NCBI RefSeq assembly: GCF_021432085.1
Contig: NZ_CP090366.1
Span: forward strand, 1,178,001-1,242,000
Direction: 5' to 3'
Source: Stutzerimonas kunmingensis
Lineage (GTDB): Bacteria; Pseudomonadota; Gammaproteobacteria; Pseudomonadales; Pseudomonadaceae
DNA length: 64,000 nt
Both the position numbers and the translations under genes were made by a program. The notes under the pieces were generated by a model. The model did no database searches, was not told the DNA's origin, and saw only the letters and a list, made by a program, of their open reading frames with translations. Of the stretch, positions 10,835 through 45,032 are shown in pieces. Numbering within the stretch: the first letter of the stretch is position 1; every line of letters begins with the position of its first letter.

Positions 10835-10863
10835 CTTGAAATGCACTTGAACGCCCGCATGTA
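10835..10863 (+). promoter_or_regulatory. Sigma-32 (RpoH) promoter candidate for groESL
   Basis: CTTGAAA at 10835-10841 is an exact match to the heat-shock -35 consensus. After a 13-base spacer, CCGCATGTA at 10855-10863 matches the -10 consensus CCCCATNTA with one mismatch. It lies about 140 bases before the groES start, leaving a long leader. This is what is expected of a heat-shock operon. Confidence 0.8.
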
Positions 10864-11005
10864 GCGGACACCGCAAGGTCGCTGTCGTGTTCGACAGTCC
10901 GTCTTCTGCGGCTCGCATCGCGGGCCGCAACCGGCACAGCCGGATTTGCCCAACCCGCCGATGAAGGTCATCGGCATGGAACAACTCTACTAGGAGAGAT
11001 CGACA

Positions 11006-42540: not shown

Positions 42541-43812
42541 CTAGGCCGAGGGCGGCAGAATCAGGATGGCGCGGAAATCGTTGACGTTGGTACGCGTCGG
42601 ACCGGTAACGATCAGGCTATCCAGCGCGGCGAAGTAGCCATAGCCGTCGTTGTTGGCCAGCGCATCGGCGGCACGCAGGCCCTGTGCTTCGGCGCGGGCG
42701 AAGCTGTCCGGGGTCATCAGTGCGCCGGCGTTGTCCTCGGAACCGTCGATGCCATCGGTGTCGCCGGCCAGGGAGTAAACGCCGGGCAGGCCTTGCAGGC
42801 TTTCGGTGAGGGCGAGCAGGAATTCGGCGTTGCGTCCGCCACGGCCGTTGCCGCGCACGGTCACCGTGGTCTCGCCACCGGAGAGGATCACGCAGGGCGC
42901 GGCGATCGGCTGGCCGTGCAGCACCACCTGGCGGGCAATGCCGGCATGCACCTTGGCCACCTCACGCGCTTCGCCTTCCAGGTCGCCGAGGATCAACGGG
43001 GTGATACCGGCGGAACGGGCTACTTCGGCTGCCGCATCGAGCGACTGCTGCGGCGTGGCGATTAGCTGGAAGTGGCTGCGCGAGAGAATCGGATCGCCCG
43101 GCTTGAGGGTTTCCGAGCGTGGGTCTTCGAGCCAGGCGCGCACGTTGGCCGGCACCTCGATGTGGTAGCGCTCGAGGATCTCCAGTGCCTGCGCCGATGT
43201 GGTCGGATCGGCGACGGTCGGGCCGGAGGCGATCACCGTGGCTTCGTCGCCGGGTACGTCGGAAATCGCATAGGTGTATACGCTGGCCGGCCAGCAGGCC
43301 CTGGCCAGGCGGCCGCCCTTGATCGCCGAGAGATGCTTGCGCACGCAGTTCATCTCGCCGATGTGCGCGCCGGAACGCAGCAGCGCCTTGTTGATCGCCT
43401 GTTTGTCGGCCAGCGAAATCCCTTCGGCCGGCAATGCCAGCAGCGAGGAGCCGCCGCCGGAAAGCAGGAAGATCACCCGGTCGCTTTCCTCGAGGTTGCT
43501 GACCAGCTCCAATACGCGGCGTGCGACGCGCTCGCCGGCATCGTCCGGGACCGGGTGCGCGGCCTCCACCACCTCGATGCGGCGGCAGTCGGCGTGATGT
43601 TCGTAGCGGGTCACCACCAGGCCGGACAGCTCGCCTTCCCAGACCTGCTCAATGGCTTCGGCCATGGCCGCGGCGGCCTTGCCGGCGCCGATGACGATGG
43701 CGCGACCGCTGCGGTCTTCAGGCAGGTGGTCGGCGAGCACGTGGCGCGGATGGGCGGCCTCGATGGCGCTGTCGAACAGCTGGCGCAGCAGGGCTTGGGG
43801 ATCGATGGGCAT
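42541..43812 (-). CDS. ttuD: Glycerate 2-kinase (MOFRL / TtuD family)
   Basis: Enzyme of 423 residues of the DUF4147-MOFRL family, predicted to phosphorylate D-glycerate to 2-phosphoglycerate. Motifs include VIGAGKAAAAMAEAIE, FLLSGGGSSLLALPAEGI, SDVPGDEATVIASGPTV and, in the MOFRL domain, LSGGETTVTVRGNGRGGRNAEF broken across the loop. Older names call it hydroxypyruvate reductase (TtuD). AAGGAG lies seven bases before the ATG at 43812. It stands between glxR and pyk, which fits the path tartronate semialdehyde to glycerate to 2-phosphoglycerate to pyruvate. Confidence 0.92.
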   Translation of the reverse strand: MPIDPQALLRQLFDSAIEAAHPRHVLADHLPEDRSGRAIVIGAGKAAAAMAEAIEQVWEGELSGLVVTRYEHHADCRRIEVVEAAHPVPDDAGERVARRVLELVSNLEESDRVIFLLSGGGSSLLALPAEGISLADKQAINKALLRSGAHIGEMNCVRKHLSAIKGGRLARACWPASVYTYAISDVPGDEATVIASGPTVADPTTSAQALEILERYHIEVPANVRAWLEDPRSETLKPGDPILSRSHFQLIATPQQSLDAAAEVARSAGITPLILGDLEGEAREVAKVHAGIARQVVLHGQPIAAPCVILSGGETTVTVRGNGRGGRNAEFLLALTESLQGLPGVYSLAGDTDGIDGSEDNAGALMTPDSFARAEAQGLRAADALANNDGYGYFAALDSLIVTGPTRTNVNDFRAILILPPSA

Positions 43813-44141
43813 CTCTGGCTCCTTGGGTCTTTTTTTGCAGAGGCCGATTGCAGACCTTAGGGCTCGGCAATGCAAGCGCTAAGGGTTGAAATCGACCCGC
43901 CCGGCAGTCGGGCCGTGACTCCTTGTGCCGGGCGAATCGAAAAGATGCCGTCCGCAGACGGCGGTTGGTGTGCAGGCGCGCGGGGCCCTGGTCGTGGGGG
44001 AGACGCGATGATTCCGACCCCGCGTACCTGCACACCAACCCTTTGAGCATCACTGGTGCTGAGCGTTGCGCTGATCCCACCACCTGGTCTGTCTGTCCCT
44101 GAAGGTGGGGGCGCAGGCCCGACTCAGTGCGCTCGAAGGCT
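43813..44141. other. Intergenic region glxR-ttuD with large hairpin
   Basis: These 329 bases inside an otherwise tight operon hold no gene. The main content is the 78-base inverted repeat listed separately. The rest shows no known motif. Confidence 0.6.
43963..44040. repeat. 78-base element with long inverted ends
   Basis: The ends GGTTGGTGTGCAGG (43963-43976) and CCTGCACACCAACC (44027-44040) are perfect inverted copies of 14 bases. After two mismatches pairing goes on for seven more (CGCGGGG / CCCCGCG), so the arms match in 21 of 23 positions around a 32-base centre. In RNA it would be a very stable stem. It may be an operon-internal attenuator or RNA-stability element, or the relic of a small mobile element. 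Confidence 0.7.
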
Positions 44142-45032
44142 TTACTCCTTGCGGATCGAGAAATTGGCCATGTGCTCCAGGCCCTTGATCAGTGCCGAGT
44201 GGTCCCAGCCGCTGCCGCCGATGGCCGCGCAGGTGCTGAACACCTGCTGGGCGTTGGCGGTGTTGGGCAGGTTGAGGCCCAGCTCGCGGGCGCCGGCCAG
44301 GGCGAGGTTGAGGTCCTTCTGGTGCAGGCTGATGCGGAAGCCCGGATCGAAGGTGCCCTTGATCATGCGCTCGCCGTGCACTTCGAGGATCTTCGAACCG
44401 GCGAAGCCTCCCATCAGCGCCTCGCGCACCTTGGCCGGGTCGGCGCCGTTCTTCGCGGCGAACAGCAGGGCCTCAGCGACCGCCTGGATGTTCAGTGCAA
44501 CGATGATCTGGTTGGCCACCTTGGCGGTCTGGCCGTCGCCGTTCTCGCCGACGCGGGTGATGTTCTTGCCCATCGCCTGGAACAGCGGCAGGGCGCGCTC
44601 GAAGGCCGCTTCGCTGCCGCCGACCATGATCGACAGGCTGCCTGCCTTGGCGCCGACTTCACCGCCGGAGACCGGGGCGTCGAGGTACTCGGCGCCGCTC
44701 GCCTTGATCTTCTCGGCGAACTGTTTGGTAGCACTGGGGGAGATCGAGCTCATGTCGATCACCACTTTTCCTGGGCCGACGCCAGCCGCAATGCCCTGGT
44801 CGCGGAACAGCACGTCTTCGACCTGCGGGGTATCCGGCACCATGACGATGATGAACTCGGCTTCCTGTGCGACTTCTTGCGGCGTGGCCAGGGCGATGGC
44901 GCCGGCCTGCAGCAGGTCGGCGGGTGCCTTGTCGTGGTGTTCGGAAAGGAATATTTGGTGGCCTGCGTTCTGCAGGTTGCTTGCCATGGGCTTTCCCATG
45001 ATTCCGGTGCCGATAAATCCGATCTTAGCCAT
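44142..45032 (-). CDS. glxR: Tartronate semialdehyde reductase
   Basis: NAD(P)H-dependent enzyme of 296 residues, beta-hydroxyacid dehydrogenase family, that reduces tartronate semialdehyde to D-glycerate. It starts MAKIGFIGTGIMGKPMASNL, the Rossmann motif, and has the substrate signature DAPVSGGEVGAKAGSLSIM and the catalytic lysine helix GQTAKVANQIIVALNIQA. GAGGAG lies before the ATG. Order gcl-hyi-glxR-ttuD-pyk is the classic glyoxylate-to-glycerate operon. Confidence 0.96.
   Translation of the reverse strand: MAKIGFIGTGIMGKPMASNLQNAGHQIFLSEHHDKAPADLLQAGAIALATPQEVAQEAEFIIVMVPDTPQVEDVLFRDQGIAAGVGPGKVVIDMSSISPSATKQFAEKIKASGAEYLDAPVSGGEVGAKAGSLSIMVGGSEAAFERALPLFQAMGKNITRVGENGDGQTAKVANQIIVALNIQAVAEALLFAAKNGADPAKVREALMGGFAGSKILEVHGERMIKGTFDPGFRISLHQKDLNLALAGARELGLNLPNTANAQQVFSTCAAIGGSGWDHSALIKGLEHMANFSIRKE

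Follow-up and report, generated by a model that had tools for sequence, protein, structure and literature searches.

The window analysed here, that is, the whole 64,000-nucleotide stretch of Stutzerimonas kunmingensis DNA, carries on its minus strand the genes gcl, hyi, glxR, ttuD and pyk in this order. Between glxR (stop codon 44142–44144) and ttuD (start codon ending at 43812) lies a gap of 329 bases, a length that agrees with the one given in an earlier note on this DNA. That note had drawn attention to a 78-base element with 23-base inverted ends inside the gap, and its coordinates and description proved correct: 21 of the 23 arm positions pair (91%; arms 43963–43985 and 44018–44040, with 32 nt between them), and the fold of the 78 bases on the plus strand (−55.6 kcal/mol, z −7.2) was matched by 0 of 200 dinucleotide shuffles. 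On the operon (minus) strand, with four extra bases, the fold reached −50.9 (z −6.0, the control here being mononucleotide shuffles). On the operon strand most of the gap is structured, and the reported hairpin, P2, is only one part of this structure; five hairpins follow one another in the RNA in the order P1, P2, P3, P4 and P5, before the ttuD start (Table 1). A search of positions 43600–44400 for a promoter-like site found none.

Table 1 Features of the glxR–ttuD gap and its flanks, in RNA order (positions in the window)
Feature	Position	Strand	Basis or remark
glxR (tartronate semialdehyde reductase), upstream flank	44142–45032	−	Match to the solved GlxR via a relative
P1, hairpin with a CAGACAG loop, directly after the glxR stop	44045–44134	−	Invariant loop; two-sided changes in the outer helix
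P2, reported 78-base hairpin	43963–44040	−	Long stem that differs from species to species; GGAATCA...CCCCACGAC at the apex
P3, terminator-like short GC hairpin with ATCTTTTCGA after it (T-tract weak)	43947–43962	−	Two-sided changes in genus alignment A1
P4, core hairpin with closing helix A:B, loop TCACGG at 43918–43913	43892–43940	−	Invariant CACGGC, G-U bias
Segment A, 5' half of the helix closing P4	43935–43940	−	A:B pairing
Segment B (GGTCGA), alternative partner of A and C	43892–43897	−	Pairing, forced-energy and duplex tests
P5, core hairpin directly after P4	43842–43891	−	Two-sided changes; R2 match
Segment C, 3' foot of P5, rival of A for B	43842–43847	−	B:C pairing
AAGGAG, likely ttuD ribosome-binding site	43819–43824	−	Seen in the sequence; role inferred
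ttuD / glxK (glycerate kinase-type), downstream flank	42541–43812	−	Function from the accessible part of PMC12694930

At E ≤ 0.001 the 329-base gap had a DNA match in 51 of the 56 genus genomes, some of the matches being partial. The 53 loci fetched from the genus yielded 51 glxR–ttuD gaps (L048 and L053 gave none), of which 50 remained after the duplicate of the window was dropped; the extracted gaps measured 273–426 bases, and the element held the same position between the same genes in these 50. P2 itself is present in a single copy, with one match at E ≤ 0.001 in its own genome. The nine outer pairs of its stem are formed in 84% of cells (272/324) across the 36 rows of alignment A2, which holds 36 of the 42 distinct sequences, and in 78% (294/378) when all 42 rows are counted, and sliding these pairs by 1–3 columns lowers pairing to 29–47%. 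The stem columns exchange T-A for C-G, G-C for A-T, and C-G for G-C and T-A. Pairs were counted from the anchored ends, because MAFFT misplaces the rewritten stems in a sequence-only alignment, which also accounts for the few pairs that RNAalifold returned on such alignments (5 for P2 and 9 for P1). The earlier note had linked a negative outcome to a single copy lacking covariation; the copy is indeed single, but covariation is present. At the apex of P2, GGAATCA is kept in 34 of the 42 distinct genus sequences, and the hairpin is altered or enlarged in six of the 42 (L041, L042, L045, L046, L050 and L051). Its strand bias (35 G-U against 18 A-C) is weaker than that in the core described below. 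P2 was not recognised outside Stutzerimonas, and the gaps of other genera hold different upstream hairpins.

The two other hairpins upstream of the core are P1 and P3. The CAGACAG of P1 is invariant in all 42 rows of alignment A3 (42 of 44 distinct sequences, two being omitted), and its outer helix is changed on both sides at eight of nine predicted pairs. P3 passes a loose scan for intrinsic terminators in the window, with a weak T-tract, and was not seen by eye in other genera. An attenuator, one of the options of the earlier note, may be present, with P3 as its terminator-like hairpin, but the T-tract is weak and P3 is not conserved outside the genus, judged by inspection.

Analysis of the two downstream hairpins, P4 and P5, revealed the most widely conserved part of the gap. 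Alignment A6 comprises 41 of 56 sequences, the 15 omitted ones all being Stutzerimonas rows; five loci with a broken or divergent P5 (L036, L051, L098, L099 and L100), four opposite-strand matches and near-identical sequences had been removed beforehand, and L104 and L122 were absent from the sequences entered, while L105–L107 were entered and dropped out below the cut. Over 29 pairs of P4–P5, 92.6% of the cells of A6 are paired, compared with 84.7% in column shuffles and 23–49% when the pairs are slid. Cells changed on both sides numbered 97 against 31.3 in the shuffles, and pairs with two-sided change 15 against 9.9, and in either case 0 of 500 shuffles scored as high; the number of further pair types was less clear-cut (35 against 30.8; 8/500 as high). 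In P5, eight of 12 pairs are changed on both sides. The compensatory changes thus exceed a column-shuffled control, as expected of an orphan structured RNA, with the reservation that this control ignores the relatedness of the A6 rows.

The helices of P4 contain 36 G-U against 2 A-C combinations when read on the operon strand (25 to 9 at two middle pairs, which were counted apart), and the helix B:C contains 33 against 2, whereas P5 shows no strand preference (11 G-U, 18 A-C). Because G-U exceeds A-C on the operon strand, RNA read on that strand appears to be the conserved object in P4. The structured-RNA option of the earlier note is well supported in this respect, by covariation in the P2 stem and by covariation together with operon-strand G-U bias in the adjacent core. 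All 41 rows of A6 have the P4 loop sequence CACGGC unchanged; in the genus of P. aeruginosa, UACGG replaces CACGG in four of 23 matched loci (L282, L283, L288 and L291). A pseudoknot partner for the CACGG loop within the gap was sought and rejected, since CCGTG occurs below expectation there (2 of 50 against 17.1 expected, 7 of 34 against 9.9, and 0 of 24 against 5.4). Nor does the loop word GTCACGGCCNGA stand out by itself, occurring at six places in the window's own genome, compared with four for the reversed pattern.

Two models were used to follow the core. R1, a model of P3–P5 built from 41 Stutzerimonas sequences and applied with strict filters at E ≤ 0.01, matched 116 of 398 Pseudomonadaceae genomes in seven of 19 genera, namely 50 of 56 in Stutzerimonas and 66 outside; in G107, one of the latter, the match covers the P4 part only. 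Forty core loci were fetched, 39 of them from outside the genus, and 37 of the 40 have the core in the interval from glxR to ttuD. The exceptions are L112, in which the core precedes ttuD without an adjacent glxR; L104 (G107, 2487–2542), in which P4 alone follows glxR, ttuD was not found downstream and the next open frame is one that we take to be pirin-like; and L122 (G039, Stutzerimonas, 1609–1875), where P4 and P5 are separated by an insertion in front of ttuD and another gene, presumably of the aminomethyltransferase-type oxidase kind, takes the place of glxR. The distance from the core to ttuD ranges from about 30 to 250 nt. R2, a model of P4–P5 alone, matched the window's own genome only at 43842–43944 (contig positions 1221842–1221944), giving a match there on both strands. 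With strict filters at the level of order and class, R2 matched nine of 390 sampled order genomes, all Pseudomonadaceae, and two of 274 sampled class genomes, both Stutzerimonas; a search of 80 of at least 119 stretches from named genomes gave at least 16 true matches, all in Pseudomonas, Stutzerimonas or Pseudomonadaceae, the next best having an E value of 0.41. P4–P5 is the older part of the structure, present in several genera, and three further hairpins including P2 were added upstream in Stutzerimonas.

In the genus of P. aeruginosa, R2 matched 23 of 25 loci, including that of a probable P. aeruginosa (L276, 45.6 bits). This probable P. aeruginosa is genome G168, the GlxR of which shows 100% identity with PDB entry 9rb2 over 295 aa. 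The other three matches of the GlxR structure search were 1VPD, 1YB4 and 4DLL, which the accessible part of PMC12694930 names as other tartronate semialdehyde reductase structures; since these account for the remaining matches, the two crystal forms of P. aeruginosa GlxR described in that paper are very likely 9rb2 and 9rfa, although neither code occurs in its accessible text.

Segment B of the core can pair either with A, closing P4, or with C, at the foot of P5. In A6, A:B pairs in all 246 cells (0–58% when slid) and B:C in 89.8% (2–47% when slid). When either helix was forced, the two energies lay within 3 kcal/mol of each other in 40 of 41 rows. Two of these, L102 and L103, allowed no B:C pair to be forced and carry no information on this point; without them the count is 38 of 39. 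The probable P. aeruginosa differs completely from the family consensus in the sequence of all three segments, and yet its A and C are both the 7-mer GGAAGCG and its B is CGCUUCC (energies −61.7 and −63.0). Of 97 sequences tested, 41 had a B:C duplex better than that with shuffled C at p ≤ 0.05 (16/40 in Stutzerimonas, 19/34 in other genera and 6/23 in the genus of P. aeruginosa). Two-sided change in B:C was found at one of six pairs, no more than in shuffles (287/500 as high), and a statistic of A/B/C overlap did not discriminate, since 73–93% of sequences still scored with the 3' flank shuffled. From the sequences, a competition between A:B and B:C is likely in many species and not universal. 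As a separate observation, the apical GGAATC of P2 (44014–44009, minus strand) can pair with 43893–43888, directly 3' of B, one of the pairs in this genome being G-U. It is identical to part of the P5 foot of related species and may act as a third competitor.

The core is dispensable, since ttuD is present in 254 of the 398 family genomes and the core was scored by R1 in only 116. Among 20 R1-negative ttuD loci, R2 found the core in two (L145 and L146); glxR adjoins ttuD in 16 of the remaining 18, and L147 and L148 contain ttuD with neither an adjacent glxR nor the core. Several core-negative loci carry a long Pseudomonas REP-type hairpin instead, and a REPIN-like hairpin was found in the glxR–ttuD gap of all three core-less genomes tested; the hairpin from G166 had 80, 104 and 80 matches in the three genomes, with both strands of the palindrome counted and 40 candidates scored per genome. 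The remark in the earlier note that the element is unlike REP units thus holds for this genome, but not for the same gap of these relatives. Because a different strong hairpin fills the gap where the core is missing, some strong hairpin at this place is suggested to be useful. One genome (G262) contains two hyi-glxR-ttuD-pyk clusters (L139 and L140), each with its own long palindrome in the glxR–ttuD gap.

We tentatively take P2 to be part of a cis-acting structured RNA, conserved between glxR and ttuD in the gcl-hyi-glxR-ttuD-pyk operon, that would act as an mRNA boundary, a reading to which we give somewhat less than an even chance. The element would hold the 3' end of the gcl-hyi-glxR message, by blocking 3'-to-5' decay, by marking a site of cleavage or termination, or both; ttuD–pyk would thereby have an expression of its own, weaker than that of hyi-glxR. 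A protein or nuclease may bind at the conserved loop, and the competition between A:B and B:C could allow the boundary to be tuned in many species. This reading comes from taking the structured gap jointly with two results in the accessible part of PMC12694930: RT-PCR across glxR–glxK (= ttuD) in P. aeruginosa gave no cDNA product, whereas genomic DNA worked, and the glxK message was very low, from which the authors concluded that the genes form separate units. The structure of the gap is not mentioned in the accessible text of that paper ('secondary structure', 'riboswitch' and 'intergenic': 0 occurrences). The failed RT-PCR could also be an artefact, with the stable fold blocking reverse transcriptase. 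Weighing against a boundary are the absence of strand preference in P5 and of a strong one in P2, as well as the excess of ttuD genomes over those with the core and the retained adjacency of glxR and ttuD in most core-negative loci. The element may belong to the upstream or to the downstream gene, since L104 has P4 without ttuD, L112 has the core at ttuD without glxR, and L147 and L148 have ttuD with neither an adjacent glxR nor the core.

The same structures could instead form a switch controlled by a ligand or protein (riboswitch or attenuator), in which P4 with its CACGGC loop would be the sensor, the bound state favouring A:B and the free state letting B:C extend P5, such that the strand change alters read-through or translation into ttuD–pyk; glyoxylate, tartronate semialdehyde and glycerate are candidate signals. 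The close forced energies in 38 of the 39 informative rows, the preserved complementarity of the identical A and C 7-mers to B in the probable P. aeruginosa despite new sequence, and the 41 duplexes above shuffles are in line with such a switch, but B:C taken alone changes on both sides no more often than in shuffles, 56 of the 97 sequences fail at p ≤ 0.05 (including 17 of the 23 from the genus of P. aeruginosa), and similar energies are partly expected, as TCGA is palindromic. Moreover, no conserved terminator or sequestered ribosome-binding site was seen at the variable distance separating the core from ttuD, and a gap inside an operon is an unusual location for a riboswitch. We therefore consider a switch unlikely. 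It is also rather improbable that P4–P5 represents a novel riboregulator within an operon, perhaps the first riboswitch to respond to an intermediate between glyoxylate and glycerate, that gates glycerate kinase and pyruvate kinase through exchange of strand B between A and C, with P2 as an added Stutzerimonas control whose apical GGAATC could compete for the GATTCC 3' of B. A passive, REP-like stabiliser, for which any strong hairpin would suffice and the core would just be the ancestral one, accords with the REPIN-like hairpins in core-less gaps and with upstream hairpins that differ between genera; we nevertheless regard it with doubt, as it leaves both the unpaired, invariant CACGGC loop and the conserved apical motif of P2 unexplained.

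Several closed hairpins and conserved single-stranded loops would also suit the release of a distinct small RNA from the operon transcript by cleavage. Such a role of the gap has little probability, considering that the region lacks a promoter-like site and an Rfam match, that its position is tied to the glxR–ttuD junction and that the named P. stutzeri RNA, NfiR, is located elsewhere (PST2408/PST2409; PMC6606865). A DNA element, such as binding sites for regulators upstream of ttuD, would explain the palindromic arms, and according to the accessible part of PMC12694930, SELEX placed sites of PA3782 and AmrZ ahead of glxK in P. aeruginosa; we hold it to be very improbable, since the G-U bias of P4 on the operon strand is not expected of strand-blind DNA, even if the rows behind this count are related and not independent. 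As for the non-autonomous mobile element (MITE) proposed in the earlier note, the long inverted ends are its one recommendation, and the absence of other copies in the genome, the same junction in relatives, with a fixed position in 50 Stutzerimonas gaps, and the compensatory changes between the arms largely refute it, leaving it hardly any probability.

REP hairpins in operon gaps have been proposed to protect upstream mRNA. The present element resembles REP and REPIN sequences in being a strong hairpin in an operon gap, and mRNA stabilisation is named for REP hairpins in the accessible part of PMC3733652; it differs in its single copy, fixed place, conserved loop and operon-strand bias, whereas REPINs occur in many copies. 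Membership of the REP/REPIN class was rejected on the single copy at E ≤ 0.001 and the single place matched by R2 in the genome. Another likeness is to orphan motifs of Pseudomonas named in the accessible part of PMC2864571, such as gabT, sucA-II, rmf and Pseudomon-groES RNA, which are family-restricted, covarying and tied to one gene, with a function that is at best guessed; unlike these, the element lies inside an operon and has no sequence or structure match in Rfam 15. With riboswitch expression platforms it shares a segment, B, that in many species has two alternative partners of similar pairing energy, but no conserved terminator or sequestered start was seen, the competition is not universal and any ligand is only a candidate.

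No Rfam 15 family reached its gathering score in the gap or in two relatives, in which only below-threshold matches of eukaryotic type appeared. Elsewhere in the window, the only family to do so was Pseudomon-groES RNA (RF01721), at 10861–10975 on the plus strand, with 100.9 bits, well above the gathering score. In the accessible part of the 104-motif paper (PMC2864571), no motif is tied to glyoxylate genes, and glyoxylate, tartronate, hydroxypyruvate and glycerate have 0 occurrences; a description of an RNA in the glxR–ttuD gap was not found in the open-licence PMC literature. Because neither an Rfam match nor a description was found, the glxR–ttuD gap RNA is apparently an undescribed, new orphan structured mRNA element. 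It places a conserved mRNA structure in the pathway for carbon from allantoin, glycolate and ethylene glycol, with a homologue in a probable P. aeruginosa, and offers a testable cause for the unexplained missing RT-PCR product across glxR–glxK. The gap RNA may set the expression strength of the later pathway genes, which is relevant to engineering of the operon for use of plastic monomers, where the gap is usually taken as empty.

Apart from these structures, the sequence AANAANAA, which we take to be a CA motif of the Hfq/Crc type, was found just before ttuD (45 nt upstream) in 27 of 30 loci of the genus of P. aeruginosa (25 genomes, some loci being counted twice). It precedes ttuD in 15 of 16 core-negative and 14 of 35 other core-positive loci, and in one of 53 in Stutzerimonas; catabolite control of ttuD may thus differ between clades.
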